From NCBI GenBank assembly GCA_947462335.1, contig OX381704.1:23700442-23764441 (forward strand): a DNA stretch of 64,000 bases, given 5' to 3'. A model generated the notes under the pieces. That model saw nothing but the letters and a program-made list of their open reading frames with translations, had not been told where the DNA came from and did not search any database. This document shows positions 33,701 through 50,832 of this stretch, piece by piece (position 1 is the stretch's first letter; every line of letters begins with the position of its first letter). Both the position numbers and the translations under genes were made by a program. Source of the stretch: Harmothoe impar. Its lineage: Eukaryota > Annelida > Polychaeta > Phyllodocida > Polynoidae.

Positions 33701-36347
33701 TTGCTTCTACTACATCACAACACACATGAATAGGAGTATTTAACATAGCCTTTGAAATAACTACGCCTTTTGCAGTCATAATGTAAAAATCAAGCAGTCC
33801 AATTTTCCATGTCTCATGACGACTAAAAAAAAAGGAACTAGGTAATGTTACAACAAAATCAGTTCCTTTGTTGTTATAATGAAACCCTGACATATCCTTA
33901 GAGGTGAGGTAAAGATACATGACGTCCTGTCTCTTCTATCCCCTTTACAGATCTGTCAACTGTGATTCGGGTATCCAAGTATTATACTTCTTTGGCCACC
34001 CCAACCACTTAACCAAAACCTCTACCCGTTTTTTGTTCTTTGGACCTACTGTCCTTCTCTGTAGTTCTTGTTCCACTTCGTACATAGTTTCTTCATCCCC
34101 TTTTACAATGACTTTTTGCAATTCCTCTTTGTAAAACTCTCCTACAATACTCTCATTGTCCCATGATTTTATCTGGTATTTCTGGAAACCCTGATGCATC
34201 CGCCTATGAACAATGGTGTATATCATTTTTGTCCATGAATGGTCATATGCCCTGTGAAAAGTTTCTCTTAAGTATGACAGCCTGACTCGATCCCCTACTT
34301 CAAACTGATATGGTGTATTGGGACCTGTCTTGGTTCTTTTGTCGTCGCGTTTATACTGCCAATGCCATAACTCAGTTTTTTCTGTAGCGCACATAGCTTC
34401 AGCTGGGGAAGAATTTAATGCTGAATGGTTAGAATTGTTATATGCATCAGTCAAATCCTGTAAATGATCTATCCAATTGAAGTTGTTATGAGCTCGAAAC
34501 ATCCGAGCAATTCTCATGCGCAAAGTCTGTATCACGCGCTCTCCGTGAGATGTTTTTATCTCATTGCTAGTTAAATAGTGCTTTATCTGTCGAGACAAAA
34601 AAAATTGCTTCATTATTTTTCCGATAAATTCAGAACCATGATCTGTTCGAATGGTGCTTGGCTCCTCATTGTACAGGAATATCTTTTCAAATGCATCCTT
34701 CAATGTAACACCTTTTAAATCTTTCAGCGGTTTGGTGTACAAAAATCTGGTGAACACATCTACACAAACTAAAATATATCCATATCCATCGTTGTCATCA
34801 CTGTGATATTTCATAGAGAGACAATCAGAATCCCACATTTGATCCTTATAGCTCGCTATGACTTTAGGGCGAGGAAATCTTTTTCTTGCAGGTTTGAATA
34901 ATGCATAACTGTCTTGATCGGCCAACCATGATTTTATCTTTTTCAGCGTGATTTTATATTTTCCTTCTGACTTAACAGCTTTGTAAACAGTGCCAGCGCC
35001 TGTGAATCCTGCTGCATGATTAGGATCATAATATATACTATTTAAATACTGATTGATTTCCTTCTCTGTTGTAGAATTAGGTGTTGAGGGTTCCATTTCA
35101 TGTACGCAAATATGAGCTGTTTCAGGCTTTCCAACCGTTTCTCCAACCCTCTGAATGAGTTCCTGCGTTGCTCCTCTTAGGACGGGGGTTGAAACGTGTA
35201 ATGGTAGAAGGAGCAGATTGCACTGCTTTATGAGCTTTTACTGTATTATCTGTTTCTAATTTTTTGCTTTCAACACTGTTTTCTTTTCTTTCAGGCGGAA
35301 CGCCGGGTGGCGGGAGTGGCGCAGAGAGTGATAAACGCGATAGCTCTGACTCCTGATCCCCCGAGTGAGATGCCTTCTTGTGGGACGGAAGTGATGTCAC
35401 CACAGTCCGACGCCCGCCCTGATTCTGAACTGACGCCCAGTCATGTACCTGTCGCTCATCCTCACCCTCATGTTCCACCGCAGAAGGTGCAGCCTGAGAT
35501 TCCTTCAGCTCCAAATTTGATTCAGGAAACAGGAGAGGGAGGGTGGAATGTTGAGGCGGATGGGATATATCCTGACGCCGTATGCGCTTCCGCAGAGTCG
35601 GACCATTCCACAACCCTCCCCACGCACCCTGCCTCTTCTCAGAATTTGATTGAAGATCTTCAGCCGTCTCTGATGCTACCTTCTCCAACCTGGCGTCCGA
35701 CTGCTCGGATGATGTCTCAACCTCCTGCTCCACCAAACCCTCTGAATTATTGGTCGGATCCTTTTCAGAACCTGCCTCAGACATCACCTTTCTCTCAGCT
35801 AGATGATCGTTTTGGATATGACTCAAGACTCCCTGTTCAGTCTGGGACTCCAAATTTGCTTCCTGCGCCTCCGATCCCGGGATCAATGACTTTCTCTCAT
35901 CCCCAGGACGACGCCACAGTCGTCGAGTATGAGGACGAACACTATTCTGAAGAGCCTCGGTATGATCGATATTTACCACCCGGGATACATCGTCAGGTAA
36001 GCGGCTTGGTGAGTCGAATTGGGGTCCCTCCCTCTGTGAAATCCCATGATGCTGAATTGAAGATCCGGGAGGTGCTAAAAGATTTGAGGTCTCCGAGAAA
36101 GAGGTTGCCTTTAACCCCTTCCCCTTCGACGTCCCCTTCCCCTTCTGAGTCGGGATCTCTGCAGTGTGATGGTTCAGATCAGACTTTGTGCGAAGAGGAT
36201 GAGATGGAGGATGCAGCTGTAGCGGCGCCTCAGAGGGCTCAGCGGTCTGGGTCTCATCTGATGAAGGAGATTTCTGATCCATATGGCCGTCTTCCTCCGC
36301 TGTACGACCGTCTCCGACCGCTGAGCCATCATCATAAGACGTGGTGA
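27720..36347 (+). CDS. Spliced single-pass membrane protein encoded by the Polinton (predicted)
   Basis: Five coding blocks have good splice signals and consistent phase: 27,720-28,061 (donor CAG|GTAAGT, phase 0), 30,431-30,568 (CTACAG; AAG|GTGAGG, phase 0), 30,877-31,009 (TTTTCAG; donor C|GTGAGT, phase 1), 31,351-31,514 (AATTACAG; AAC|GTGAGT, phase 0) and 35,295-36,347 (TTTCTTTCAG; stop TGA). The predicted order is: signal peptide (MLASFLFSMLFFSINGVP); ectodomain with six cysteines (CPGHTRCECLGGYISCRG) resembling a leucine-rich-repeat N-cap; Pro-rich stalk with an NES sequon; one membrane segment (SGISSVVVILVLVVIGC); Arg-rich juxtamembrane region; and a long Pro/Ser-rich cytoplasmic tail of about 400 residues. 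A longer in-frame start at 27,591 exists. The 3.8-kb fourth intron contains the capsid and integrase genes on the other strand. The last exon is antisense to another long ORF. The splice model is inferred; no homologous protein was recognised. Confidence 0.55.
28190..29200. repeat. Dispersed repeat material within the first intron
   Basis: The edges (28,200-28,345 and 29,150-29,185) carry TGTCATGGAATGTCATGG motifs matching the inverted form of 8336-8605. The left edge CATGGTTCCTACGTGTCATG resembles a hAT-like terminus. The interior holds the 96-bp tandem repeat. Probably a host nonautonomous element or nested elements inserted into the Polinton. Confidence 0.5.
28573..28826 (+). repeat. 96-bp tandem repeat, about 2.6 copies
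   Basis: Units start at 28,573, 28,669 and 28,765 (CCAACTGACAGAGTACATGC). The period is 32 codons and one plus frame stays open through it, containing the phrase HPPTDRVHAAPPG. Each unit contains an acceptor-like CCCTGTAG. The core CCCCCAACTGACAG...TACATG is also found at the start of the membrane-protein exon at 30,431, in the same reading frame (PPTDR). Confidence 0.8.
29458..30347 (+). CDS. C2H2 zinc-finger protein of the Polinton, two exons
   Basis: Exons 29,458-29,967 (donor AAA|GTAAAT) and 30,021-30,347 (acceptor TTTCTAG) join in phase 0 to give about 278 residues. After an acidic/Thr-rich N-terminus come two finger pairs. Exon 1 has CFKCDLSFINSPGLFRHNRI...H and CIHCSVGYARIGGLTKH...H; exon 2 has CMECGFRFFSNSSLHRHMNY...H and CQICSASYDKMDAMLHHMKK...H. 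Each pair is preceded by the same phrase, VATQAG, so the exons look duplicated. The ATG at 29,458 directly follows an acceptor (TTTTAG), which is phase-compatible with the donor at 28,061. It could therefore be an alternative 3' end of the membrane-protein transcript, or start after a 5' UTR exon. Likely a nucleic-acid-binding protein. Confidence 0.6.
31670..32992 (-). CDS. Polinton major capsid protein
   Basis: 440 residues from ATG at 32,992. The length, position next to the minor capsid gene, and strand-rich composition match the Polinton PY protein, a double jelly-roll major capsid protein. Typical phrases include VRYYPKSAISGGSPIGFRIE near the start, NGLNMYLTFYQAMDAFRLI in the middle and FNVQSHLNIQDGVFPIIRKA near the end. 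In the family these proteins are predicted to assemble into icosahedral particles. The ORF is uninterrupted. The assignment rests on pattern recognition without an alignment. Confidence 0.8.
   Translation of the reverse strand: MQEYKFSESEEGFSSKLAVFEPPKMDTSILDTERVRYYPKSAISGGSPIGFRIEPYSSGYIDGSQTSMTIEMKITKGADEDVDVTDLVTLTNLPLNSIFSQVGVTMSGTEVNPDVGSMFPFKNYLEMILTVDKEAKTSLGEQRGYFQDSTEGVGTALPTTDAKKPNAGLMARHALTNSGKSIVVKGPIGLEYIEKLNKFLLNGLNMYLTFYQAMDAFRLIASTDATKYKLNILNMYLTVTYVKIRPEVLVRHSELLSEGKNAIYGYPRVYMRNHVIPSAVNSFSISQVLADRIPSLLVLGLVDSDAYTGSYTKSPYNFEHFDLNYVSLQVGSHSVPDRPMEPDFANNNFAEEYEAFLAVTRGQGSSFSKKDFVNGNCLFCFNVQSHLNIQDGVFPIIRKANTRLELRFKTNLKKSVVAVLYMITPGLYSVSQSRMVTVEY
33000..33473 (-). CDS. Small basic protein, possible core or DNA-binding protein
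   Basis: 157 residues from ATG at 33,473, strongly Lys/Arg/Ser-rich in the C-terminal half (KKTKKKSTTSPRRSDKKKR) and ending in a lysine tract. It lies between the two capsid genes, with 7 bp to the major capsid start and 9 bp to the minor capsid stop. Position and composition suggest a structural or genome-condensing protein such as those of adenovirus-like particles, but no specific homology is visible. Confidence 0.65.
   Translation of the reverse strand: MVLVPIGISVGAWSRSIDPKSKSRSVPTDNFTDQTGMHSFHRVIGGGNAKKNSKKEIIHPKLISPVQQVLEQTKEKEKRADGPDTENITFKMSDGTSSGTGVRKKTKKKSTTSPRRSDKKKRSPGTTIKRLQRKRNTQSNIRAGRSNKSGSKSAKKK
33483..33920 (-). CDS. Polinton minor capsid (penton-like) protein
   Basis: 145 residues from ATG at 33,920. 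The N-terminal part (VVTLPSSFFFSRHETWKIGL followed by LDFYIM) follows the pattern of Polinton minor capsid/penton proteins: a 'TLP...' strand, then 'WxVGLxEI'. The remainder is strand-rich (RMTTLHVYLNDCSG). It is short for a complete single jelly-roll of this family, so it may be reduced. It sits between the integrase and the basic protein, as in other Polintons where capsid genes cluster. Confidence 0.65.
   Translation of the reverse strand: MYLYLTSKDMSGFHYNNKGTDFVVTLPSSFFFSRHETWKIGLLDFYIMTAKGVVISKAMLNTPIHVCCDVVEATAFNERQVNLLTSLRLKDCNKNIFEPSHVRYVPLAQERMTTLHVYLNDCSGSAMSLDGSVSYCTLHIIRGDI
33945..35096 (-). CDS. Polinton integrase with C-terminal chromodomain
   Basis: 383 residues from ATG at 35,096. 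The catalytic core has the three acidic residues of the DDE retroviral-integrase fold: Asp in WDSDCLSMKY, Asp in IRTDHGSEF, and Glu in SHGERVIQTL, with 33 residues between the last two. The N-terminal part is helical (KITLKKIKSWLADQDSYALF). The last 50 residues (VEVLVKWLGWPKKYNTWIPE) form a chromodomain with its aromatic cage pattern. Chromodomains on Polinton and chromovirus integrases are thought to steer insertion through histone marks. The ORF is intact. Confidence 0.93.
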   Translation of the reverse strand: MEPSTPNSTTEKEINQYLNSIYYDPNHAAGFTGAGTVYKAVKSEGKYKITLKKIKSWLADQDSYALFKPARKRFPRPKVIASYKDQMWDSDCLSMKYHSDDNDGYGYILVCVDVFTRFLYTKPLKDLKGVTLKDAFEKIFLYNEEPSTIRTDHGSEFIGKIMKQFFLSRQIKHYLTSNEIKTSHGERVIQTLRMRIARMFRAHNNFNWIDHLQDLTDAYNNSNHSALNSSPAEAMCATEKTELWHWQYKRDDKRTKTGPNTPYQFEVGDRVRLSYLRETFHRAYDHSWTKMIYTIVHRRMHQGFQKYQIKSWDNESIVGEFYKEELQKVIVKGDEETMYEVEQELQRRTVGPKNKKRVEVLVKWLGWPKKYNTWIPESQLTDL

Positions 36348-36426
36348 GTTGAGCTGAGTTAAAATGTTTTTCTTGAGTTTTCATTTTACTATATTCCTCA
36401 AATGGAATGGTAATGTATTTCCTCAT
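35122..36426 (-). CDS. Polinton low-complexity protein, antisense to a plus-strand exon
   Basis: 434 residues from ATG at 36,426. The first 15 residues (MRKYITIPFEEYSKM) look structured and resemble the start of proteins found at this position in other Polintons. The rest is Ser/Glu/Gln/Lys-rich and probably disordered. It lies 25 bp upstream of the integrase start and 4 bp downstream of the next stop codon, in the same packed cluster. About 1.05 kb is fully covered by the plus-strand exon 35,295-36,347. In this register, third positions of each strand lie opposite second positions of the other. Function unknown. Confidence 0.55.
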   Translation of the reverse strand: MRKYITIPFEEYSKMKTQEKHFNSAQLTTSYDDGSAVGDGRTAEEDGHMDQKSPSSDETQTAEPSEAPLQLHPPSHPLRTKSDLNHHTAEIPTQKGKGTSKGKGLKATSFSETSNLLAPPGSSIQHHGISQREGPQFDSPSRLPDDVSRVVNIDHTEALQNSVRPHTRRLWRRPGDERKSLIPGSEAQEANLESQTEQGVLSHIQNDHLAERKVMSEAGSEKDPTNNSEGLVEQEVETSSEQSDARLEKVASETAEDLQSNSEKRQGAWGGLWNGPTLRKRIRRQDISHPPQHSTLPLLFPESNLELKESQAAPSAVEHEGEDERQVHDWASVQNQGGRRTVVTSLPSHKKASHSGDQESELSRLSLSAPLPPPGVPPERKENSVESKKLETDNTVKAHKAVQSAPSTITRFNPRPKRSNAGTHSEGWRNGWKA

Positions 36427-36430
36427 GATG

Positions 36431-36745
36431 TTACAATAATGGAATAAGGTTTTTCTTCACAGAAATCAATAGATGTAATATCATAATGTGAGACTTCTGT
36501 ATCAACCTAACTCGTTTTTCCTTTGTTATTTCTTTATCAGCTAATGTTGTCAATGTCTTGTGATGTGAGGATATGATATCCTTTGTTTTTTTACCAACCG
36601 GTAGACGTAGTATGTTTCTTATGATTTCTGAAAGACACTCTGCCTGCTTGTCTGATGCTGTGACTAATAATGCTTCTCCTTGCACTATATCACATGACAT
36701 AAGCAACCTGAGATAAAATTCACAATCTCTCAACCTTTTGGACAT
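36431..36745 (-). CDS. Small Polinton protein with hydrophobic C-terminus
   Basis: 104 residues from ATG at 36,745. It starts MSKRLRDCEFYLRLLMSC, has a basic helical middle with KTKDIISSHHKTLTTLADKE, and ends in a hydrophobic stretch (IMILHLLISVKKNLIPLL). It resembles small proteins commonly seen beside the ATPase in Polintons and adintovirus-like elements (pattern 'SKRL..LL...ECA.N(V/I)L...KK.L..LA'). A role in particle maturation or membrane interaction has been guessed for that group; I cannot confirm it. Confidence 0.55.
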   Translation of the reverse strand: MSKRLRDCEFYLRLLMSCDIVQGEALLVTASDKQAECLSEIIRNILRLPVGKKTKDIISSHHKTLTTLADKEITKEKRVRLIQKSHIMILHLLISVKKNLIPLL

Positions 36746-36859
36746 TGTGTTGTGACGTGTTCATTCACACGCTGGTTCGGTGAGGTGTTATCTTCACTCC
36801 TGTTCAAAGTGAAGTGGGGGGAATCATTTCACGTACCCATATTTATACCTTGTCCTACC

Positions 36860-37558
36860 TCATCCATACGTGATGAGATTTTCACCAGGGAAAATGTTTG
36901 TGAAAATTCTAGCTCTCAACCGAGGAGAGTCTGATGACATATGGCGACTGACATCTGCTGGGTGTAGAGAAATTAGTTGATATCCGTATGCTTTTTTTAA
37001 TACACAATCACGGTAACTTTGCTTCAGGATGTCACCTAATCCTGTTTGTTTTGATAATACATTTATCTGACTAATATCCCTAGGGTTACATAACACAAAG
37101 AAATAATGTGTGTTCATGGAAAGATTACGACTACATTTTCCCTGTGCATATAGATTTTGTGCAATATACAACACCGAAATAAATTTATGATGAGCATACT
37201 TTGTGAACAAGTTTTGAGCCTCCACACTCTTCACCACCTCTTCCATTAAGTCATCTAACACTACAATGCAATGTCGAGAGCCGTCTGTAAAAATGTTCAG
37301 ATCTTCTTCATTTGGAATTCCTCTTCTAAATTTTATTCCGGGTACTGTTTTTCTCATCTCTGAAAAAAGAGGCTGGTCTACTGTCATACAATACAACACT
37401 TCGTGTACAGGTGTATCATATATTACATTTTTGAACTTGAGTATTTTGTGAACAAGTGTGGTTTTTCCACTCCCACTGACTCCTGATACAGAACTATTGC
37501 ACGGGGATTTCAATGGGGGAAAAATTGTCCCCTTGATTGATTCAATGCAGTGATCCAT
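36860..37558 (-). CDS. Polinton genome-packaging ATPase
   Basis: About 232 residues from ATG at 37,558 (MDHCIESIKG). An in-frame GTG extension to 37,624 is open, but the ATG gives the family's usual length. The Walker A motif is GVSGSGKTT and the Walker B motif is CIVVLDDLMEE, with a downstream sensor-like NPRD. This is the A32/FtsK-HerA type ATPase that drives genome packaging in related viruses. It lies between the polymerase gene and the small protein at 36,431. Confidence 0.9.
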   Translation of the reverse strand: MDHCIESIKGTIFPPLKSPCNSSVSGVSGSGKTTLVHKILKFKNVIYDTPVHEVLYCMTVDQPLFSEMRKTVPGIKFRRGIPNEEDLNIFTDGSRHCIVVLDDLMEEVVKSVEAQNLFTKYAHHKFISVLYIAQNLYAQGKCSRNLSMNTHYFFVLCNPRDISQINVLSKQTGLGDILKQSYRDCVLKKAYGYQLISLHPADVSRHMSSDSPRLRARIFTNIFPGENLITYG

Positions 37559-40500
37559 GATGCAGATGTATGCTCCGTACTGTTGCAGTGACCGTATCTG
37601 ACAGCTAAATGAAGTATATGGCACAATCCCAAGCGTCTTATAACTATTTACTGCTGCATGAAATCCCTGTCACCCTTTAAGTTCTCCCAAAATACGCTCA
37701 TCATATCAGTACCAGGAAAAGTATGTGGGTTCGATATTTCAGCCATTTTTTGACTCAATGCACAAGTAAAATATGCATTGTTACTAAATCCAGGTTGAAC
37801 GATAAGTAAGTCTTTGGTTTGTTTTAGCATGGAAATTATCTGAAATTTGATCATATCAATTTTTTGCCACACAATTTGGTTCATGATTTCTTCTCTGTCA
37901 TTGTACCAAGATGATTTTGGATTTATACTTTTTACAAGGCTGTTCACTTTTTCCAATTTTCCAGTAATTAAAATATCCTGAGCAATATCATGTCGATCAT
38001 TATACAATGCCATTTCATATGCAAATAAATGAGAGCATGATGTAAAAATGGAACCATGTTTTTGTAACGCTATCTGATAATCCAAAGAGAGGCAGTGTTT
38101 CTCCCCCTTTAAAACAAAAGTATTATGGTTTTCCCATGGGTTTAGAGTGGATTTTAGCGGAATAGTGTCTATGCCATTTTCAAGAACCTTTCTTTTGACA
38201 TAGAAAAAATTAAATCCTCTTCTAACCTGTCTGTATGTCATAATACCATTGTGTATGGGTCTGAAACCAATGTTTTCAGCAGAACCTGTTACACGATCTA
38301 TAAGAGCTTTTTCATATAATATTTTAGGATTGATGAGAGCAGACTTGTTTATCCCTTTAGCCTTAACACAGTCAGGCTCATGCTCACGAGATAGGTGATA
38401 GGTTTTAGGAGCTATAGCTATGATTTCATCTCCTGTTGCTTCTATTTTAAACAACCCGCGTTCCCTCTTGTCAAATTTTCTATGTCTATCACAACACTCC
38501 CTAGGAAACCAGTGTCCCGCTGATGCTCTGAACGGTGATCCTTCTGAGTCTAAATCATAGCATCGATTGAAGATAGCATCATTGAATTCATCCAGTTTTG
38601 AAGGTTTAACCACGTCCTGTATTGACTTTCCAGCAATGCTAAGATACAAACTGTCAGTGTCCATGTGAGTTAACTCAAAATCTTTCCTGTCCACATAATA
38701 GTCCAGACAATCATAATAAAATTCAAGCATTTTCAATTTTGCTGTTTGTAATATTGTAAATGCTAATTGAATAGGAATATCGAGATCTATTTTCTTTTTG
38801 CTCATTTCTATTTCATACATTTCCCCAGGTAAATCAGTAGCCTTTTTAAATGAAGGATTGTTTACAGCTAGATGAGCCTCATGCATGCTGTGTACATATT
38901 TTACATCACTGTGTTTAGTTTTATCTAACAGCAATGATCCATACGACGCATTTCCTAAGATTTTACAAGTTTCTCCCAATATAACTTTAGAATTATCCAC
39001 GTCTCCTTCTCGTCTCGCTGATGAAATGTAATCACAGAACCCTTCGAAACATTTCTCAAATCGATACTCTACTACATCATATACCCTACTGACTTGTAAT
39101 CCTCTCTCTAAATACCACTTCAATAAATTTGTAGCTAAAAATATTTTACTCGCGGCCATCCCACCTACCAATAGTTTTCGAGAATCGGTAAATATTCCGG
39201 AATGCCGTGAAAGACTATAACTCTGCATAGTGGGTCCCCAATCGTCAAAATGCACCTCAGAATTACAGAATATTGGAGCCATTTCACTGAAGTATTGATA
39301 TGGGCTAATGTCTCGTTCTTTTCCAATTGGCCATATATCAGGAACCTTAATGTCGACCTGAAGGAATCCAGTCAATGTTCCATTCTCCACATTTTGTAAA
39401 ATAGTCTCAGTGCTTACAGGTCTTGGATAATTCAAATAAAACTGTGGGAACATTTCTTTTATACTATGTCGAATATCAGGATTGTCCCTTTTCATCTGTG
39501 CAAACTCACATTCATATATCACATTTAGATTGATATTTCTATTGCTAATGTATTTTTCTCGGTCAAGTGTAGCTATCCTCTTTTTTTCTTGCATCTCTCT
39601 AGTTTTTTGGGAAGTGGAATATTTCCGGGTACCATCTGCATTACGGTTAAATCCGCATATCTCAGGGTCGTGACCATGAGTCCAGCAGCCATGAAATTCA
39701 TATCCTATAGATACAGTGTCTCCATTTTCATCCAATGACGTAGCAAATCCATCTAGTAGATAAGGTCCTACGGGGAATTCCTTTCCTGAATTCAATTTAT
39801 GCTGAATCTGGATGTTGTCTTTTTTCCCTATCCAATTTAGCCATTGATACATTTCCAAGTGGGACCAACTTACTTCAGGTTTAAATCTTCTTTCTTCCAG
39901 TCTTCTTATAGGAAAAAGAACTGGTAATTGTTCTCCCAGAGCAAATAGATAAAGAGCATTGCAGTCATATCCTTCAATGCTTTGGCAAATACGTTGCGGA
40001 TTATTTCGTATCTGACTTTTTCCCACTTTAGCATGTCGTTTGAATACAATACTAGGACCACCGAAAGCACACTTTTTAATTTTGTGAAACAGATCGTCTT
40101 GCATCCGATTGAAACTAGCAAAATATTTGTTATTTTCTTTAGCATGTTTGAACAACAGGCGTCGTGCAACTCCTGGTGCTGATATTGCCACTTTAAACAC
40201 ATCCACTCCCATGTTGAAATAATATTTTTGCAACTTCTCTGCTCCAGTAACGAAGGGACCTGTGTCTAAATTTGCATAATACTCTAAGAAATGCTCAAAT
40301 CTTGTCATCTCTTTTTCATTCCATATTTGAAGTAGATCCATGTATTTCATTTGTCCTGTTTTGGGTGGAGAACCTCTACATCCCAATGCTTGCCATTCCT
40401 TGTGTTCAGCATTTAACACATTACAGTTTTTCAGTTTGGAAAAGAAAGCGTCATATGGTGGTAATTGGTTGTATTTCAACTTTTCAACAGAATCAAACCA

Positions 40501-41815
40501 TTCATATGGGAAGTAGCTCTTTGATTCTTGAACATCATAAGCTTGAAGGAAACGAGAATAATTACAGCCAGGTGCCAAAGAATTGCTGATATCCAAAAAT
40601 TTATATTTCGATGTAGCGATAGTCGTGTATTGGTTGCATTTTTTTACAACATAGGACATATCAGAAGCGAGATGAAGATGCTTAGGAAAATATTTTTTTA
40701 TCAAATTTAAATCATATTTGGATGAATTAAAACCCAAAACTGGTACAGTTGCCATGTAGTTTTCAAAACGAGTAACTAAATTTTGTACACGATATGAATG
40801 TGTCCTGCGAGCCTCCTCATGATCCATTCCTCCGATGTTTGGATTAGAAGAATTTTGAACTGTATCTTCTGTTTCTTTCTGTATGTTTGCTCCTGTTTCA
40901 GTACGGAAATCTTTCAAAACGGTGTTGTGTTGATTCATAGATTGTTCAGTAATTTGTGAGATAGGAAACTCAATAAGTTGCGCTTTCAACTTATCGATGT
41001 ATGTAGACCAACGCCGAGAAGCTAGCTCATAACATTTTGCTTGGATCTGTTCTAGTCTGTCGCACATCTGTTTAACTAAATTATCAGGATCCTCATCAAC
41101 AATGCAGTGAGGGAGTGTAAATCCTTCGACGTTGGATGCTATACTGACGCACACTGGAATATGCTCTGTAGTCCACTGGGTGTTATCTTGATTGGGTTCT
41201 CTGTTCACTGGCTTTAGTATAGACTCAAAATCGTACACTACAAACCATGGAAAAAACTGTAACCATCCTTCTGTGCTGATACCTAGTGTCTGCTGTATTT
41301 CATCAAAAAAAGACAAGTGTGGATGATATATTCCTCCAGGAAAATTATACTTCACACGGTCTGAACAAGATTTCTCATGGCATTTTGTATGATATGAACG
41401 TTTGAAAGCTCTTCCACAAAATCTACATCCATACTTTTTGGCATATGCTGAAAAATTAGTTATAAGGCTAAAGTGATTTTGATATAAATTTAGATACATT
41501 GTTCGAGCTGCATCATTCTCGTCAGTGAAGAAAGAATTATATACACGCTTACATGTTCCATCCTGAGACAGGGAATAAACATATACCCTAACGTCGAAAC
41601 ATTTCTCAAAATCAGGTAAATCTTCAAAAGATATACCTTTGTATTGTTTTGCACGTGAGGGAAGATCTGACACACCGAGATGTTCTTGATATATTTTCCA
41701 TTTAGCATAGTATGCTTTGGTTCTTCTTTCTATGTTCCTACTTTTGTCCACGTGCCAAGCTAGACAACGAAAAGCACATAGATTATCTTGAGAACGAGTA
41801 CCAGAAATATTCATT

Positions 41816-41830
41816 GAAATAATGCTATGA
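41816..41830. repeat. LINE target-site duplication, left copy
   Basis: GAAATAATGCTATGA, identical to 48,881-48,895 just after the poly(A) tract. It lies inside the polymerase coding sequence, so the same few codons are present twice. Confidence 0.97.
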
Positions 41831-42775
41831 GGGAGAGAGGGCGCCACCAGCACCAGTAGTTGACCCCATCACGAGCTCAGCACTATATGCACGTTTTCTA
41901 AGACAATTGACAGTTCTGTAGGCTACTTCTAGTGCCTCAAATACGATTACAGATCAGGGATCATTGAGGAATCCAGTATAATAAGTTTCTGTGAGTAGAA
42001 ATACTATAAATGAGACACTCAACTGGTGGCTGGGCGATATAAGAAGAAATTGGTGCACATAACAGCAGCATTAGTTTGGCAACTCTCCTACAGAGGGTGA
42101 CACTTCCAGGGACGTTCGCCGGCGAAACGGACAACAACAAACCGCCGCAGTGACTAGAGGACTGCACCGTTGGAAGCGGTAGGCCGCTGTGAACACACAG
42201 AACTTTTCTGGGAGTCTCTAGCCCTTTTCTTTGTGATTCCACAAATGAATCAACAGGTTTATATGTATTTGACTGTTACTCCTGAACCAATTAACCTAGA
42301 GACACCCAGCACGCGCCATTTTAAAGATAATTTCGTCCCCGTCATTCTGAGCTATAGCCTGTCTCGCTAAGCCAAACGAGGCCGGTGCTACGCCCGTCAG
42401 AACGTTCACACTAAAATCGGGAGAGGGAGCCACCATATGCACTAGTCACTCACTTCCACACAAGGTGGCGCCTATATGGTTTTGAGATATTGCATACTGA
42501 CAATCCACTGCTCCCTGGTAAGCAAACAGTTAGGCCTGGTGCAGTAGGGCCTGATTAAACTGAGTCAAAGTGTGGGAGGATAGTATGTAGCAGATGAACA
42601 TAACTCTGTATCCACGTGTTTCAAATTGTGATGACATCACAGATGCCCAGAAAATAATGAACATTTAAATTATAGTGAGCCATAGGGTCGACTCATTGCT
42701 AGCTGTGCCTCCCCAAAACTTTGAACAAATATTTTTATACAACAAAATTTACCAGCCTGTGAGAGTCGGCCCTGT
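41831..42775 (+). promoter_or_regulatory. LINE 5' UTR, likely internal promoter
   Basis: About 0.94 kb between the target duplication and the ORF1 start. LINEs of this group carry their promoter here, but I see no specific element. A minus-strand read of the first bases appears to extend the polymerase frame through a GTG; this is an artefact of the insertion. Confidence 0.5.
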
Positions 42776-44293
42776 ATGCATAAAGTCACTGTTCAACTTA
42801 ACATAATGCCAGCAACAGATGCGATCTCATCTGGGGAAGGGGAGGCCCCAATGGACCACCATAATTCTGACAAGGGAGCAAAGAAGCGAATGCCAGAAGA
42901 GGCAGGACTGTCTGATGAAGATGGAAGTACGGACAGAAAACTAAGAGTCACCGAAGAACCACACCACAATGCACCTATCAAAACTACCACCAAACCCGCT
43001 GCAGACAGTGTTGAGGGCGAGGAAGAGCTCAGTCTACTGGTACTTGCTAAGACCCTTGCTCGTATTGAAGATAGACTGATTAGAGTAGACAATACTGGAC
43101 AGACTACATCCAGCGATATTAAAGAATTTCAAGAGGACCTGTCGACCCTGGCAAATGATGTAGAGGTAAACAAAGGTGATATCGAGGAGCTACAGGAACA
43201 GGTGGCCAAACTCCGGTCTGATCTGACTGAGACCAAGGCAGAACTGGAAGAAACTAAGGCAGGGATGAAGGCCAACATGGTGCACATAGACAAAATTGAA
43301 GACAACAATATGAGACAAGAGGCATATTCCAGGAAACTAAACCTTATACTGGACGGTCTTCCAGAGGGTCGGAACGAAACTCCCGACTCTCTGAGATCTG
43401 AAGTGGGGAAAATTTTATGGCGCCAAACGAAAGTCGAAAACAGCTCCATTGACGTGGTTCACCGCATCACCAGAAGCTCTGCCCAAACATCTAAACCAAA
43501 CTCACCAAGGCCTGTTATCATAAGGCTAAAATTCTTGGATGCCAGAAACAAGGTATGGGGACAGAGGGCGGAGGTGGGAAATTACACCGAGAAAGGGGCG
43601 CAGCTGTGGGTCAGCGAGGATATCCCCACTAAACTAAGGGGCGAACTATCTAGGGTCAAGAAGGCTTTCTGGGTGGCCAAGAATCATGGCTCATTCAGGG
43701 ACGTGCGTATGTCAGGCACCACCCTGTATCTCAATGGGAAACCATATAACAAAGACAACTGGAGTACTCTGCCTGAATGGCTAGGGCCAGAGGCTATGGC
43801 CACCATGGAGAGTGAGGACGCTCTGGTATTCTTTAGCAAAGCGTCCCCTTTTAGCAACCACTTCCACGCTGGGTTTGAGGTAGATGAAAAATCCTACTCG
43901 TCCATGGAGAAATATCTTGCTATACAACGGTGCATAATCGCGAGAAGACAAGACCTAGAGGCACAAGCATGGAAGATAGATCTGCCTGCCAAGCTCAAAG
44001 GTATACTCTACAAATGCAAAGATGAACATAAGGATGAGTGGATCGCGAAATCAAAGTCCATCACGAAGAAAGGTCTCAGGGAAAAGGTAATGCAGAACCC
44101 CTATGTTCGCCAGCGCCTCCTCAGCACAGGAAACAAGACCATTGGAGAGGCCTCAAAGGACACAGTATGGGGCATCGGGATGAGGCTGACGGACAAGAAC
44201 GTGCTTAACAAAGAACTATGGTACGGAAAGAACCTGCTAGGGGTTGTTCTTCAGGAAATTCGACAGGAACTTCAAAATGATGGCCAAGAATGA
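42776..44293 (+). CDS. LINE ORF1 protein: coiled coil, RRM-like region and C-terminal NADAR domain
   Basis: 505 residues from ATG at 42,776; a second in-frame ATG at 42,806 is an equally good start. Residues 1-75 are acidic and disordered. About 90-180 form heptad-rich coiled coil (IEELQEQVAKLRSDLTETKA). About 180-300 match the RRM-like/C-terminal region of L1-type ORF1 proteins (SRKLNLILDGLPEG, DVVHRITRSS). From about 347 to 500 there is a NADAR (YbiA-like) domain: DALVFFSKASPFSNHF, FEVDEKSYSSMEKYLAIQRC, a basic helical part, QNPYVRQRLLSTGNKTIGEA, DTVWGIGM and GKNLLGVVL. NADAR proteins include enzymes acting on N-glycosidic bonds of ribosides and ADP-ribosylated guanine. ORF1 proteins bind element RNA; a NADAR fusion is unusual. 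Confidence 0.85.
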   Translation: MHKVTVQLNIMPATDAISSGEGEAPMDHHNSDKGAKKRMPEEAGLSDEDGSTDRKLRVTEEPHHNAPIKTTTKPAADSVEGEEELSLLVLAKTLARIEDRLIRVDNTGQTTSSDIKEFQEDLSTLANDVEVNKGDIEELQEQVAKLRSDLTETKAELEETKAGMKANMVHIDKIEDNNMRQEAYSRKLNLILDGLPEGRNETPDSLRSEVGKILWRQTKVENSSIDVVHRITRSSAQTSKPNSPRPVIIRLKFLDARNKVWGQRAEVGNYTEKGAQLWVSEDIPTKLRGELSRVKKAFWVAKNHGSFRDVRMSGTTLYLNGKPYNKDNWSTLPEWLGPEAMATMESEDALVFFSKASPFSNHFHAGFEVDEKSYSSMEKYLAIQRCIIARRQDLEAQAWKIDLPAKLKGILYKCKDEHKDEWIAKSKSITKKGLREKVMQNPYVRQRLLSTGNKTIGEASKDTVWGIGMRLTDKNVLNKELWYGKNLLGVVLQEIRQELQNDGQE

Positions 44294-44441
44294 TGTCAAA
44301 GTAACTGACACTACACCTGGGTGTAATAACATGGTGCTCTAGATTCACTCAATATATGGGTGCATCAAAATCGTCAAAAACTCAAATGTCCAACCTCTAA
44401 ACCGGTTACTGAGCATAAAATCAAAACCTATTTCGAGTTAC

Positions 44442-44762
44442 ATGAAACACGTGGTTTACGGAGCAACTATTTTATTTTTTTATATGCTCTGTTGTGTTCT
44501 TTTTATATGTTTAAATGTTATGTGTGTGCGCAATGTTATGTATACCATTTTAGAGGTAGTGTTACTGTGTCTGTTTTTTGTGGTGTGCCACCGGCACGTG
44601 CTGAGGATGGCTGATAAATCCCTGTATCTACCCTCTTGCAGTTTGGTGAGTCAGCAGGTAAACATACAACAGACCCACTTAAAATCATTGATACAACTAA
44701 AACAATGTATAGCCCCCCAAAGGAGTATGACCCATGTCCTGAATTCAATTGGTTATGAATAA
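44442..44762 (+). CDS. Small ORF overlapping the LINE ORF2 start (uncertain)
   Basis: An ATG-initiated frame of 106 codons in the ORF1-ORF2 spacer. Its N-terminal half is very hydrophobic (ILFFYMLCCVLFICLNVMCV). Its stop TAA at 44,760 overlaps the ORF2 ATG at 44,755, an arrangement that could allow termination-reinitiation. It may also be chance in a T-rich spacer. No homology recognised. Confidence 0.25.
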   Translation: MKHVVYGATILFFYMLCCVLFICLNVMCVRNVMYTILEVVLLCLFFVVCHRHVLRMADKSLYLPSCSLVSQQVNIQQTHLKSLIQLKQCIAPQRSMTHVLNSIGYE

Positions 44763-47700
44763 TCGCACTGGAATTATTGACTTGTGTTCTTTTAATGTCA
44801 ATGGTATGGGCTTAAGAGACAAACGAAGGGCTATTTTCAAAAAGTTGAAAGAAGAAAATTATAATATTGTATTTCTCCAAGAAACCCACTGTACGATGGA
44901 TGTAGAAAAGGTATGGCAAGCCGAATGGGGTGGGGATATGATATGTGCACACGGCAGCTCAGCATCTAGAGGTGTAGCCATACTATTTAGCAGGGAATAC
45001 CCTTACAAATGTCTTGATAAAATCCTAGATATCAATGGCAGGTACATAATTCTACACATTGAGGTGCAGGGAATAGAATACATCTTATGCAATATCTATG
45101 CTCCAACACAAAATTATGAAACTGAGCAGATGGCCGTTCTGGATGAAATATCAGAGGGGCTAAAGAGATATGAGGTAGAAAACTTTCTCATCGGAGGAGA
45201 CTTTAATGAAATATGTGACTTGACCATAGATCGGAGGGCTAATAATCAAACAAACAGAACAAATAAGCATTACAGGGAACAGTTACATAGTCTGAAAGAC
45301 AGCCTGGGTATGGTGGATATTTGGAGAGTTCGACACCCCTCACTACGTAGGTACTCCTTCCACAGACGAGAACAAGCCTCAAGAATTGATTTCTGGTTAA
45401 TATCTGAACATCTTTCAGGTGTAGTGTATAAAACAGATATCAAACCTGGAACACTTTCTGACCATAGTGCAGTAACAATGGGAATTTCCTATAGTAACAG
45501 AGACCGGGGCCCCAATATTTGGAAGTTCAACAACACCCTTCTCTCTGATGAAAAGTATGTTAAACAGCTAAAAGGTATGCTTGTGGAATGTAAAACAAAA
45601 TATCAAGACCTGGCACCAAATAAAAGGTGGGAAATTCTGAAATATGAAATAAGAAAGTTCTCAATAAAATATAGCAAAGAGAAAAGGTTAGAATCTAAAA
45701 GGTCTGAAAAGGATCTGACAGACAGTATGAATAAGCTAACGGTAGCATTTGATGAGGGCTGTGACGTGAGTGATGAATTAGAAAGTGTGAAGAGAGACCT
45801 TAAAGATATTGAATTGAAAAAGGCCAGAGCAATCATGTTCAGGTCAAAAGCTAACTGGTCTCAGGCAGGGGAACGACCAACAAAATATTTTTTGAATCTA
45901 GAAAAGAGGAACTTTCTGGACAAACTCATTACCCAGCTAGAGGATGAAAATGGCCGTATTGTTACCGAAGACAGGGATATTCTTAATGTACAGAAACAAT
46001 TCTACAAGACTCTATATTCACAGGATTCTAGGGAACTAGATGACATTGATGATAGGTGCCCCTTCATAGAAACAGACAACTTAGCCATATTATCCGAGAA
46101 TCAGAGAGAGCTGATAGAAAGACCCTTATCAAAGTCAGATTTTCTCGCTAGTCTAAAAACCCTGAAAAATGGGAAATGCCCAGGCACTGATGGGCTGAGT
46201 GCAGAGTTCTATAAATTTTTCTGGACAGATATCGGGGACTATGTAAGCCAAAGCCTTCTACACGCAATGGAGATAGGAAGTTTAAGTCAAGAGCAGAAAA
46301 GAGGCATTATAACCCTTATCCCTAAGAAAGAAAAGAATAGACTTAAGCTTGGGAACTGGAGGCCAATTAGCCTATTAAATACGGACTATAAGATTTATAC
46401 CAAGGCACTTGCAGAGAGAATGAAGCCTCATCTCCCTAGTATCATTAGCACAGATCAGTCAGGTTTCGTCAGGTCCAGATATATAGGAACAAGTATCCGC
46501 ACAATTGAAGACATATTATCATACTCCACAAAATATAAATGCCCAGGGATCTTGATGGCAATAGATTTTGAAAAAGCATTTGACAAGATACGATGGGAGT
46601 TCATTTTTAGTGCGCTTGAGAAGTTTGGATTTGGAGACAGGTATATATCATGGGTCAAAATACTATACAAAGACATTGTAGCCTGTGTTATAAATAATGG
46701 GTTCACGAGTGACTGGTTTGAACTTACATGTGGTACCAGACAGGGGTGTTGTCTCTCACCATTCTTATTTGTTATAGCTGTAGAACTGTTAGCACATAAT
46801 ATACGCATGAATGTAGATATAGATGGTATCAAACTTAGTGGTAGAGAAGTAAAGATAAGTCAATTTGCTGATGACACAACTTGTTTTATTAAATCAGCAA
46901 CAGCTCTTGGTCATCTACTGGACTGCCTGAAGAGATTTAGAAGATACTCTGGCCTAAAGGTTAATAGATATAAGACACAGTATCTTGCTCTGGGAGGTAT
47001 TAACACGGCCCAAGTAGGGCTAGAGAACATTAGGTGGAACGACAGACTGGTGGTATTGGGCATTACTGTGACAACGGACAGGACAGAAGCTCAGAATTAT
47101 CTATGGAACTTTAAACCCCAAATACAGAAAATCATGACCATTAGCAAAGATTGGAGACACCGAAACATATCACTGAAAGGTAAAACTATTATTATTAACA
47201 GTCTAATGCTCCCGTGTGTCATGTATCCTGCCTCAGTCACTTCTACACCACCTAGAGTAATAAATGAAGTCAACAGAATAATCGACAGGTTTTTATGGAA
47301 CTCAAACAGAAACAAGGTTGCTAGAAATCGGGTACAGGTACAAACTAAACATGGTGGTCTGGCGGTAGCAGACCTCAAAACAAAAATCATTGTATCAAAC
47401 ATAAACTGGATTAAAAGACTCTATATGAATCCAGCCATGATCCCAGGTGAATTTGTAAAGTTACTTCTAAACGAGACATCGGATCTGAAACTGTTTATAC
47501 GCACAAAGTCGGATGTCAACATACCACAGGAAACTCACCCATTTTATCATCAGGTTCTGAGTGACTGGCATGAATTCCATAATGTATCATTAGCTCAAGA
47601 AGCAGAGGTACGCAACGAAATATTGTGGAACAACAAGTTTATTACTGTTGACCATTCACCTATATTTTGGAAGACCTGGAGAGATGCTGGTATTGTTAGG

Positions 47701-48531
47701 ATTGAAGATATATTGATCAGCGGAAGTTTTATGTCAGACACTCAAATTTCACAAAGGTATGGTGTTAAGTGTAACTTCCTTCAAGCTCTACAAATCCGAA
47801 ATAGTATACCAGGCCATTGGAGGGCTAGTCTATCTGATGGTGATGTTGAGATCCCTGAAGACTGTATCTGGATCATTAATAACACACCAGATATAGTAAA
47901 CATTTTTTCTACACCAAGCAGAGAGTTGTATTGGATAATACTTTATAGATACTCACAGGTCATAGCAAAGAATGAATGCAAATGGGGCAAAACCTTCCCG
48001 ATGATCCAGTTAACAGATTTAACATGGCATGATATATATGTCTGTCCATACAAGGTGACTAGAGAGACAAAATTACAATCCTTCCAGTATAAGGTGCTCC
48101 ATAGAATACTCGCATGTAATAAATATTTGTCTGACATACGAGCAAAGGATAGCTCAGAATGTTCATATTGTGATGGTGTGGCTGATACTCTAGACCACTT
48201 CCTTGTTAAGTGCCCACCAGTAGCCTACTTTTGGAGATCTGTTATAAAATGGATGAATCTGATTGCAAAACTTGATACTGGTATGTTAGATGAGCATGAA
48301 CTAATACTTGGGGTATGCAGGAAAATTCCAAACAGAGATATCATTAATAACATACTTCTCAGAATCAGGTTCTATATATATAGACAGCGCCTGTACCATA
48401 AGTGCCAACTTGATATACTGCAATGGTTAAGAGAATTCAAACATTGCCTTCTGTCTGAGCAATATATATGTAATATTGAAAGAAAGCAAAAGAAGTTTAA
48501 AAAATGGGTAACGATTCTGAACTCTATATAA
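44755..48531 (+). CDS. LINE ORF2 protein: endonuclease and reverse transcriptase
   Basis: About 1,258 residues from ATG at 44,755. The N-terminal AP-endonuclease domain (residues 1-230) shows SFNVNGMGLRDKRRAIF, FLQETHC, IGGDFNEICD, ASRIDFWLIS and LSDHSAV. A linker with KANWSQAGERPTKYFLNLEK leads to the reverse transcriptase: LIPKKEKNRLKLGNWRPISL, MAIDFEKAFDKI, GTRQGCCLSPFLF and the catalytic QFADDTT. Near the C-terminus is a CCHC motif (CSYCDGVADTLDHFLVKC). It nicks target DNA and primes reverse transcription on it. No internal stop or frameshift is visible. Confidence 0.95.
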   Translation: MNNRTGIIDLCSFNVNGMGLRDKRRAIFKKLKEENYNIVFLQETHCTMDVEKVWQAEWGGDMICAHGSSASRGVAILFSREYPYKCLDKILDINGRYIILHIEVQGIEYILCNIYAPTQNYETEQMAVLDEISEGLKRYEVENFLIGGDFNEICDLTIDRRANNQTNRTNKHYREQLHSLKDSLGMVDIWRVRHPSLRRYSFHRREQASRIDFWLISEHLSGVVYKTDIKPGTLSDHSAVTMGISYSNRDRGPNIWKFNNTLLSDEKYVKQLKGMLVECKTKYQDLAPNKRWEILKYEIRKFSIKYSKEKRLESKRSEKDLTDSMNKLTVAFDEGCDVSDELESVKRDLKDIELKKARAIMFRSKANWSQAGERPTKYFLNLEKRNFLDKLITQLEDENGRIVTEDRDILNVQKQFYKTLYSQDSRELDDIDDRCPFIETDNLAILSENQRELIERPLSKSDFLASLKTLKNGKCPGTDGLSAEFYKFFWTDIGDYVSQSLLHAMEIGSLSQEQKRGIITLIPKKEKNRLKLGNWRPISLLNTDYKIYTKALAERMKPHLPSIISTDQSGFVRSRYIGTSIRTIEDILSYSTKYKCPGILMAIDFEKAFDKIRWEFIFSALEKFGFGDRYISWVKILYKDIVACVINNGFTSDWFELTCGTRQGCCLSPFLFVIAVELLAHNIRMNVDIDGIKLSGREVKISQFADDTTCFIKSATALGHLLDCLKRFRRYSGLKVNRYKTQYLALGGINTAQVGLENIRWNDRLVVLGITVTTDRTEAQNYLWNFKPQIQKIMTISKDWRHRNISLKGKTIIINSLMLPCVMYPASVTSTPPRVINEVNRIIDRFLWNSNRNKVARNRVQVQTKHGGLAVADLKTKIIVSNINWIKRLYMNPAMIPGEFVKLLLNETSDLKLFIRTKSDVNIPQETHPFYHQVLSDWHEFHNVSLAQEAEVRNEILWNNKFITVDHSPIFWKTWRDAGIVRIEDILISGSFMSDTQISQRYGVKCNFLQALQIRNSIPGHWRASLSDGDVEIPEDCIWIINNTPDIVNIFSTPSRELYWIILYRYSQVIAKNECKWGKTFPMIQLTDLTWHDIYVCPYKVTRETKLQSFQYKVLHRILACNKYLSDIRAKDSSECSYCDGVADTLDHFLVKCPPVAYFWRSVIKWMNLIAKLDTGMLDEHELILGVCRKIPNRDIINNILLRIRFYIYRQRLYHKCQLDILQWLREFKHCLLSEQYICNIERKQKKFKKWVTILNSI

Positions 48532-48880
48532 TTTTTGGACACACTTCAGCGGTCCCAGTTCCAGATTTCTTTGAAAGATAGCAGATCGAACATGTACTAG
48601 GAACAAATATGATGGCCTAATATAAATACATAGATGGCACGATACATATATACATATATATATACACCAGTATACCATTATCTGTATCATTAGTAGCATG
48701 AACCATATATATATATGATTATACTAGTCTGTAGCGCACAATGTATTGTCCCGTAATGTCCTGTAATGTCCTGTGGTGTTCTCATATACCAAAAAAAAAA
48801 TTAGCGAACAAATGTATTCTTGTAGACACATTTATCATGAATAAAGAACGAGCGCTGCTCTATAAAAAAAAAAAAAAAAA
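48532..48880 (+). other. LINE 3' UTR and poly(A) tail
   Basis: Contains TA-rich repeats (ATATATACATATATATATAC near 48,645) and iterated TGTCCTGTAATGTCCTGT at about 48,750-48,775. It ends with 17 A directly before the target duplication. AATAAA is at 48,840. Confidence 0.8.
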
Positions 48881-48895
48881 GAAATAATGCTATGA
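48881..48895. repeat. LINE target-site duplication, right copy
   Basis: GAAATAATGCTATGA, identical to 41,816-41,830. It begins directly after a run of 17 A. Confidence 0.97.
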
Positions 48896-50832
48896 CTATT
48901 TTGAATATGCATTGGGACTTTCTGAAAATGTTTTTTCTGTCTTCCAGCTCCTATGACATATCCCATTCTGTATATGAAATATGTGATATTTGTGACATAC
49001 ACTTTTTCCCATTTTGTTGAATCTCGAGATTTAGTTATATTTTCTATAGACGTATTTTCTTCCAGTTCCCGTAGCAGTGCATGAATATCATCAGGAGTAG
49101 AGATCCTGAACGGCATATCTAATATGGTATTGTTATAATACGCGGTGTAATACCTATATTCACCAGTTTCTATGTTTCTCAATATAGTTCCAAATGCAGC
49201 ATTAAGCTTAAATGTGTGAGATTCAGTTGATATTATCCGCTGTAAGTGAGGTCTCATTATAATAGTCTCACCATTGAAATCATCAATAGGAAAGTTATAT
49301 ACAGCTCTAACTATTCCAGCATCATGGGTTGCATGTATAGTATCACGGTTTTCCTGATATATGTGCATGAACTGATAATCTATCCTGATGTTACCCTGAT
49401 CATCACGCGCTATCCATGGCGGGTCCACATTGTTTTTGTTTTTTTCCCAAGGCATTCTCATGTCTGGGTTGTCTATTCTATCCACTCCATTACGTGTGTG
49501 GTGAATCTTTGCTCTGTGTGCATGAAGTTTGTAATGAGCATCAAAAGTTTCATCGCAGTCATTACATTTCAATTGTCGTTGAGTATTATGCAATTCATCT
49601 CCATGTACAGAATGTCTGTGTCCCGCCAATTCTCTGTAAGAATTAAAGCTAACAAAACATGTATGACATGAACATGAGTGTTTTTTATGTCGAAGATGTG
49701 ATTGATAATGTTTTTGAAACAGCTTAATGTCCAAAAAATGTCGTTGACATTTACCACATCTATACCCAGGGCTGTGACTGTTACCAACTTTGTTACATGT
49801 GATGCAATTAGAAGTGCAGCGACCACTAACGCCAGGTGTTGTATCCTCATCGTAGATTTGCATCATTTGCTGATCCAGTAGCCGTGCTTCTATTTGCATC
49901 GCTCTTGTATTGCTGCCCTGATGAGCTTTATCTTGAACTCTCTTGGTACATCCAGCTTGATGGTTGTTGAGAGAACGTTGTGAAGGTAAAAGTGCATTAC
50001 AAATGCTACACTGATAACATTGGCCACTGCATAATTCCTCATGTCTTCTTTTAGTCAAATTAGATGCAAATGCTCTTCCACATGACTTGCACTGCTTGTC
50101 CTGAGAATGAAAACAATCAATATTTTAATTTTTATATTTTACAGATGGATCAGATCTTACTTCTGAATGAAAACCGGAGTTCAAGGTAAAAACACAAGAT
50201 GGTGAGAGAGAGCGAGAGAGAGAAACATGACCAATGTATCCACTTATAGGATACCGCATACAAGGAGAATATTTATTTGGAAACGGCAATATTGTGATGC
50301 GTCAGGATGGTGTATTGTTATATCTTTTTCTTGGTTCTGAGTATACGTATAGTTGACGTCATAACGTTGACCAGTGCGATAGTATTTTAAACATAGACCA
50401 CTTTATGTACATCGTATATATCATATAAGTAGGATAGTTTGGTTACTCACCATTATTTTTGTAGACATGTATGCTATATTACTATATAAAAAATAGCTGT
50501 ATTGATAAGATGATTTTCACTTAATAAGATTGACATCAAGAATGCTAGATAAGACCTATGCTCGTATATATAGGGGTGATACCGCTGCATACCTTAGCTT
50601 AAGAAAATGATGCTGTTGAATTATTCATGATGAACAATGAGTGAATCGGAGGTGTGATGGCAAAGGTTAAGTTGAAGAAGGACATTGATATATGTGGACA
50701 GATGTAAAGTAAATGATCATATCATGACACATGGAATATTTTTATACGAAGATGCAATTTTGAAATATAAGCTCAAAATGCAAGAGAAAAAACAAGAAGT
50801 ATTTAGATGTAGTTGTTTTCATTTTTATTGTG

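Follow-up and report, generated by a model that had tools for sequence, protein, structure and literature searches.

A full-length LINE of Harmothoe impar with a constrained C-terminal NADAR domain in its ORF1 protein

Results

A LINE whose ORF1 protein ends in a NADAR domain

The stretch of Harmothoe impar DNA analyzed here (the window; 64 kb, contig OX381704.1, positions 23,700,442 to 23,764,441) contains a long interspersed nuclear element (LINE) with two open reading frames (ORFs), the first of which encodes a protein with a C-terminal NADAR domain (Table 1). An earlier interpretation made from the letters alone (the sequence-only reading) had called the element full-length, and this held, as a terminal A run and a perfect 15-bp direct repeat (GAAATAATGCTATGA, identical at both ends) were found. 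ORF2 is listed with a TTG start at 44749 and has its first ATG at 44755, giving a 1260- or a 1258-amino acid frame, and it matched PF03372 (E 5.1e-15) and PF00078 (E 1.5e-39) above their cut-offs and PF13966 slightly below (E 1.8e-05). When the 1260-amino acid frame was searched against solved structures, residues 9-878 matched L1 ORF2p (8uw3, E 2.8e-101), with R2 far behind (E 5.6e-15). Judged by its endonuclease and reverse transcriptase ORF2, its target-site duplication and its A-rich 3' end, the element is a LINE, and the L1-like ORF2 places it in the L1/Tx1 group, Tx1 itself belonging to the L1 group. No second copy was found within the 64-kb window; elsewhere in the genome, copies align with most of the length of the element.

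Table 1 Features of the LINE and of its ORF1 protein (positions are those of the window)
Feature	Position	Strand	Evidence
Full-length LINE, 7050 bp	41831-48880	+	duplication at both ends, endonuclease-reverse transcriptase ORF2, terminal A run
Left target-site duplication, 15 bp	41816-41830	.	perfect direct repeat with 48881-48895
Right target-site duplication, 15 bp	48881-48895	.	perfect direct repeat with 41816-41830
5' untranslated region	41831-42775	+	left boundary to first ATG of ORF1; in-frame stop upstream at 42722
ORF1, 505 amino acids	42776-44293	+	open frame; own-genome copies with open ORF1
Coiled-coil region, ORF1 residues ~90-175	43043-43300	+	several coiled-coil Pfam models, each under its own cut-off
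RRM-like region and CTD, ORF1 residues ~181-345	43316-43810	+	profile A1 positions 4-113 against L1 ORF1p 2ykp (E 4.2e-06) and 2ldy (E 5e-05)
NADAR domain, ORF1 residues 355-500	43838-44275	+	PF08719 E 6.8e-24; 8bau, 2b3w
E378, assigned equivalent of E43	43907-43909	+	alignment to 8bau; E in 76/76 LINE rows; role from PMC11543638 (excerpt)
R385, assigned equivalent of K50	43928-43930	+	alignment to 8bau
E458, assigned equivalent of E125, YbiA-type catalytic glutamate	44147-44149	+	alignment to 8bau; E in 76/76 LINE rows
ORF2, 1258 amino acids from first ATG	44755-48531	+	apurinic/apyrimidinic-type endonuclease, reverse transcriptase, zinc-binding motif
3' untranslated region and terminal A run	48532-48880	+	sequence

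The C-terminal NADAR fusion claimed by the sequence-only reading was confirmed by Pfam, where PF08719 matched residues 355-500 of the full ORF1 protein with 85.4 bits (curated cut-off 35.1; E 6.8e-24) and the C-terminal piece alone at E 5.3e-25; the NADAR motifs it had named were also found in the translation. By sequence, the C-terminal piece matched two PDB entries, 8bau, a NADAR (E 9.5e-07), and 2b3w, YbiA (E 0.00033). Profile A1, built from the C-terminal parts of seven ORF1s, matched 8bau over positions 159-313 (E 4.1e-26) and the L1 ORF1p structures 2ykp, 2yko, 2ldy and 2w7a over positions 4-113 (best E 4.2e-06). Because solved relatives match both ends of this profile, the order RNA recognition motif (RRM), C-terminal domain (CTD), NADAR is supported, and the apparent homology of the RRM and CTD to those of L1 ORF1p puts ORF1 in type II (L1). 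As to the rest of the domain make-up proposed before, the RRM-like region was recovered by the L1 ORF1p profile match, while the coiled coil appeared only in Pfam matches under their cut-offs; Transposase_22 was absent from the seven Pfam families with E <=0.01 on the window ORF1 and from the best 25 of 33 at E 1. Chance or mis-annotation of the NADAR was ruled out by the Pfam and PDB matches together with its recurrence.

Catalytic positions

Characterized NADARs reverse guanine ADP-ribosylation of DNA (PMC11543638, PMC11125620) and also ADP-ribosylation of guanosine in RNA (PMC11833690); papers are cited here from excerpts, apart from PMC10294476 below, and statements about them extend to those excerpts. 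The sequence-only interpretation is supported in part: both the fusion and the class of enzyme stand and, on the strength of characterized relatives, the activity with the best support is that of taking ADP-ribose off nucleic acids. The element may use it on its own nucleic acids, at the nicked target or against host ADP-ribosylation, as that interpretation had suggested. E43, K50 and E125 were named as key residues of the P. nicotianae NADAR (PMC11543638). We take 8bau to be this protein with numbering two higher, a reading that E43, K50, E125 and D130 all fit, and the equivalents in the LINE protein were assigned accordingly (Table 1). The 76 LINE NADARs compared comprised the window ORF1, 40 database proteins and 35 from this genome, leaving out the incomplete NADARs P0015, P0045, P0047 and P0048 and the truncated P0004. 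Position 385 in this set is K in 58, R in 15, and Q, C and A in one each (K or R in 73/76). In a 42-row ORF1 alignment (A2; the window plus 41 of the 44 PF08719-bearing ORF1-like database proteins, with P0015, P0045 and P0048 excluded, as was P0004, which has no Pfam label), 12 of 399 scored columns were invariant, and nine of these lie within residues 350-500.

Where DarT1-linked NADARs have Asp and phage NADARs have His, all 76 LINE NADARs have Glu (E458), which points to the YbiA subfamily and away from the DarT1-associated (BC4488) NADARs. Residue 361 was Asn in 76/76 LINE NADARs versus Gln in 29/29 cellular NADARs of the compared set; since YbiA and 8bau also carry Asn there, it marks the subfamily and not the LINEs.

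The domain might instead be a YbiA-like N-glycosidase that clears small-molecule damage unrelated to ADP-ribose. YbiA-like damage clearance concerns riboflavin intermediates, E. coli YbiA is annotated as an N-glycosidase, and four database ORF1s carry the source label 'ribA/ribD-fused'. We consider this very improbable, as a retroelement has no evident reason to keep such an enzyme on an RNA-binding protein and the tested YbiA proteins act on guanosine-ADP-ribose too (PMC11125620). The P. nicotianae NADAR was crystallized with ADP-ribose bound (PMC11543638), which would suit a domain that mainly reads ADP-ribose and guides the ribonucleoprotein to ADP-ribosylated chromatin or strand breaks for target choice, hydrolysis being incidental. 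A reader has no need for both catalytic glutamates, yet both are kept in all LINE rows, and such a role seems unlikely to us.

Recent movement and purifying selection

Three copies, L108, L109 and L110, are located on different large contigs (C6, C15 and C20). Over 6.5 kb, L108 shared 99.7% identity with L109 and 99.5% with L110, and similarity stopped at the element ends, so the LINE family has moved recently; all three are ~89% identical to the window element. The L108 copy has related ~130-bp tandem repeats on both flanks, as if inserted in a satellite.

The comparison of nonsynonymous with synonymous substitution rates (dN/dS) across copies, which the sequence-only reading had proposed, gave 0.046-0.104 for the NADAR between open copies (L119 and pairs within the near-identical trio left out). 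Between the window element and L108, L109 and L110, dN/dS was 0.074, 0.074 and 0.077 in the NADAR, 0.130, 0.130 and 0.139 in the RRM and CTD, and 0.165, 0.173 and 0.174 in the N-terminal part of ORF1. The values for the window element against L111 and L112 were 0.046 and 0.075 in the NADAR and 0.139 and 0.131 in the RRM and CTD, and the NADAR was again lower than the RRM and CTD between L108 and L111 (0.066 vs 0.234) and between L111 and L112 (0.063 vs 0.099). L108-L110 have too few changes among themselves for an estimate, and L114 is saturated. These substitution patterns showed that the NADAR is under purifying selection, mostly with a lower dN/dS than other ORF1 parts between close copies.

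Distribution in databases and in the genome

Three database searches returned 4, 7 and 106 proteins. PF08719 was present in 41 of the 106 database matches of profile A1, and the 65 without it mostly look like NADAR-less ORF1s. The C-terminal region was not missing from related copies in the 1.51-Gb genome: 80 of 85 scored matches of the ORF1 protein extended to query residue 464 at least, into the NADAR, in a search that scored 85 of 3586 first-look candidates, several of them fragments of one copy, with a query whose own NADAR favours NADAR-bearing copies. With PF08719 as the query, 150 of 150 scored places (from 3484 candidates) were above the cut-off, and open frames of at least 300 amino acids hold 125 of them. 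As a control for this search, 3 of 14 named genomes matched, all bacteria by name. The four best places were shorter stand-alone frames of 183-268 amino acids, L147 at C19:3415138 and L148-L150 at C21:30057793-30084570 (three within 27 kb).

We fetched 36 loci from ORF1 matches reaching query residue 499 or beyond and three (L144-L146) from the PF08719 search; a NADAR in 39/39 is no measure of frequency, because the loci were chosen on that basis. The RRM/CTD profile matched 35 of the 36 and one of the three, only partially in L113, L123 and L131; there was no match in L119, L144 and L146. Of the 16 longer loci, in which ORF2 was looked for, 15 had one, the exception being L123 (no match in its 8-kb locus), so the LINE label of the 20 short loci rests on ORF1 homology.

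Some of these loci have unusual frames. The 516-aa frame of L123 (L123:3-1553) has two CCCH-like zinc fingers, identified by eye; behind them come the last part of the ORF1 CTD and the NADAR. L123 is possibly a host gene built from an ORF1 tail or an element with a different front half. L144-L146 have ORF1-like frames of 812-1020 amino acids within the fetched stretches, with a linker between the RRM/CTD-like part and the NADAR; in L144 and L145 this linker is long and rich in Pro, Gln and Ser, whereas that of L146 is short.

Evolution of the fusion

For 37 ORF1s (without P0031, P0033, P0035 and P0040, which are short, P0047 and three non-LINE proteins), the RRM-CTD and NADAR trees had 19 of 34 splits in common, compared with 0.24 on average and at most 4 in shuffles (n = 2000). 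The path distances of the two trees correlated with rho 0.77 (shuffle maximum 0.29, n = 300). As the trees of the two halves are congruent, we concluded from them that the ORF1-NADAR fusion is old and co-inherited. The RRM part of 58 of 65 NADAR-less candidates could be cut for a further tree, in which a starred branch (97) set 38 NADAR-bearing and two NADAR-less ORF1s apart from the other 56 NADAR-less ones. The NADAR-less P0049 and P0093 that fall inside the NADAR group may be losses or broken pieces. They are also what could be expected if the NADAR were a passenger without function, which we regard as hardly credible given the dN/dS between open copies, the invariant residues and the congruent trees.

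The LINE NADARs stood on one side of a branch from the sampled prokaryotic and phage NADARs in a first tree (starred, 99) and from prokaryotic, phage and own stand-alone NADARs in a second (starred, 98 in the SH-like approximate likelihood ratio test, SH-aLRT), both trees having a narrow cellular set (viral loci, 5 of 19; genome loci, 17 of 80) that came from scans started with a single type of NADAR. Both include P0008-P0010; the second adds L147-L150 and excludes L109, L110, L112 and L119, and P0047 was excluded throughout. L015 was also excluded, because of a stop. When the tree was extended with ten phage or plasmid NADARs and E. coli YbiA (and thinned by 21 rows), YbiA fell on a long branch within weakly supported LINE rows. 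A single LINE NADAR clade was not rejected by the approximately unbiased test (p-AU 0.327), nor was it demonstrated. Stand-alone eukaryotic NADARs in these trees came from this genome only: L147-L150 are like the LINE NADARs in having PF08719 and the same catalytic residues, but differ from them in grouping with prokaryotic and phage NADARs (starred, 98 SH-aLRT; starred, 97 in the extended tree). Recent capture of a host NADAR is unsupported, given this grouping.

More than one kind of ORF2

The ORF2s of L108-L119 could be aligned with most or all of the window ORF2 (L118 to residue 842), the best pieces being 41-98% identical. Homologous ORF1-NADAR proteins also occur in L120, L121 and L122 (PF08719 E 4.3e-31, 2.1e-18 and 4e-22), with shorter ORF2s of 973, 948 and 962 amino acids that have RVT_1 matches and weak endonuclease matches and align with only part of the reverse transcriptase of the window ORF2, at 21-29% identity. 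Among solved structures, the L120 ORF2 did not match L1 ORF2p at E 0.001 and its best match was R2 (3.4e-13), and that of L122 matched R2 (6.8e-12) better than L1 ORF2p (1.5e-09). The L121 ORF2 matched 8c8j (3.9e-13) and L1 ORF2p (4e-12), both better than R2 (2.2e-07), and may still be nearer L1. All these matches were ~90 orders of magnitude weaker than that of the window ORF2 to L1. By these alignments, ORF1-NADAR occurs with unlike ORF2s, L1-like in the window and much less L1-like elsewhere in the genome. Exchange between LINE lineages has been reported for other ORF1 types (PMC4120745).

Between ORF1 and ORF2, L122 has an additional 336-aa frame (L122:4293-5303) that looks SGNH-esterase-like by eye; it had no Pfam match at E 0.01.

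Surroundings of the element

The LINE seems to be inserted within a Maverick/Polinton-type element on the minus strand (33945-41853 and 48835-50058; labels by eye from translations), whose recognizable parts are integrase-chromodomain-like (33945-35096), ATPase-like (36860-37624) and DNA polymerase B-like (37648-41853). The DNA polymerase B-like gene apparently goes on past the far side of the LINE. Two open frames overlap on opposite strands, one of 434 amino acids at 35122-36426 (-) and one of 346 amino acids at 35307-36347 (+).

Discussion

The sequence-only reading was unsure whether such a fusion had been described. It has, in a short passage of a 2025 paper, according to which the ORF1s of several Crassostrea gigas Tx1 LINEs appear to hold YbiA-family NADARs (PMC12477816). 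The same paper reports Ectocarpus Gypsy elements with a NADAR in Pol, and RNA processing was suggested there as the role of retroelement NADARs. No other report was found among the literature matches listed, which cover open-licence papers only, and the word NADAR is absent from the main text of a paper on bivalve transposons (PMC10294476). The LINE ORF1-NADAR fusion is thus an already known, little-studied kind, to which the present element adds a member. It resembles the C. gigas Tx1 elements in being a LINE with a NADAR in ORF1, here with an L1-like ORF2, and it adds to that account a full-length copy, selection, catalytic residues, counts and the ORF2 kinds of L120-L122, a type that goes beyond the published Tx1 remark and may be a new variant.

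Comparison with other systems places the protein further. The Ectocarpus elements likewise encode a YbiA-family NADAR, but they are long terminal repeat elements with the domain in the N-terminal region of Pol, whereas here it forms the C-terminus of ORF1 (PMC12477816). The type II ORF1p of L1 has the same kind of RRM and CTD; as described, it consists of a coiled coil and an RRM and ends at the CTD without an enzyme domain, and the present ORF1 adds the NADAR (PMC4120745). The type IV ORF1 of CR1/L2 LINEs also has an enzyme-like domain common to different ORF2 lineages, but an esterase in place of a NADAR (PMC4120745). DarT1-NADAR antitoxins belong to the same family and have the E43 and K/R50 positions; they differ in having Asp at the E125 position and DarT as a partner, whereas the LINE NADAR has Glu and nothing resembling a DarT partner was noticed in the element (PMC11543638).

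Sequence comparison shows that the fusion exists and is deep, that the catalytic positions are kept and that selection is purifying. With about even confidence, we interpret ORF1p as an L1-type RNA-binding protein with a C-terminal YbiA-type NADAR, predicted to be a guanine-ADP-ribose hydrolase that clears the nucleic acids of the element. According to this model, the NADAR of ORF1p would hydrolyse ADP-ribose from guanine. Since ORF1p covers the RNA of the element and accompanies it to the target, the domain would be held on the element ribonucleoprotein and act in cis, be it on this RNA, on first-strand cDNA or on target DNA exposed in single-stranded form. Removal would be needed because the marks would block reverse transcription. 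Their likely source would be a putative host guanine-directed ADP-ribosyltransferase, comparable to the animal enzymes clam CARP-1 and butterfly pierisin (PMC11209040); guanine-N2 ADP-ribosylation activity was detected in six clams (PMC11209040).

Several observations weigh against this interpretation. The NADAR was not the lower part between L112 and L108 (dN/dS 0.104 vs 0.103 for the RRM and CTD), and L119, a copy with a short open piece and a partial frame, gave 0.267. Three of the 76 LINE NADARs have neither K nor R at position 385, and 35 of the 76 rows came from loci picked for matching the NADAR region. The window ORF1 itself has Arg, not Lys, at 385; a Lys-to-Arg change at the K50 site of E. 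coli C7 NADAR kept guanine-ADP-ribose hydrolysis in vitro but lost antitoxin rescue from DarT1 (PMC11543638). Furthermore, YbiA and T4 NADAR were weaker on RNA than a DarT1-linked NADAR (PMC11833690).

The conserved catalytic residues would also suit a NADAR that acts in trans, stripping ADP-ribose from host proteins or soluble derivatives and so blunting a PARP-type antiviral or DNA-damage response, and the Macro and NADAR domains of metazoan RNA viruses have been proposed to be acquisitions directed at adducts that host ADP-ribosyltransferases make (PMC9503650). However, the demonstrated NADAR substrates are guanine-linked, with no activity on phosphate-end or 2'-OH RNA adducts (PMC11833690) or on thymidine ADP-ribose (PMC11125620) in the excerpts cited. 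In all members examined, apart from the front half of L123, the NADAR is also joined to an ORF1 that binds RNA, which points to a nucleic-acid substrate. We judge action in trans to be rather unlikely, though it deserves consideration.

Going beyond the predicted guanine-ADP-ribose hydrolase acting in cis, we tentatively suggest that an ancient ORF1-NADAR cassette, which accompanies unlike ORF2s and so has perhaps moved between LINE lineages, could serve in counter-defence as a dedicated eraser of guanine-ADP-ribose on element RNA or cDNA; this is possible, if some way from probable.

What NADARs do in the various eukaryotes, including animals, is unclear (PMC11125620). In the genome studied here, many NADARs lie in LINE ORF1s (39 loci examined of 150 scored places), and those compared are constrained, so the eukaryotic NADAR question gains a concrete, assayable setting. 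The known ORF1 types gain one that bears an enzyme and is combined with unlike ORF2s, and ADP-ribosylation of nucleic acids becomes something that retroelements may face. If the counter-defence proposal is true, some invertebrates would possess a still undiscovered defence against retroelements that works by ADP-ribosylating nucleic acids, and CARP-like enzymes would be candidates for it.

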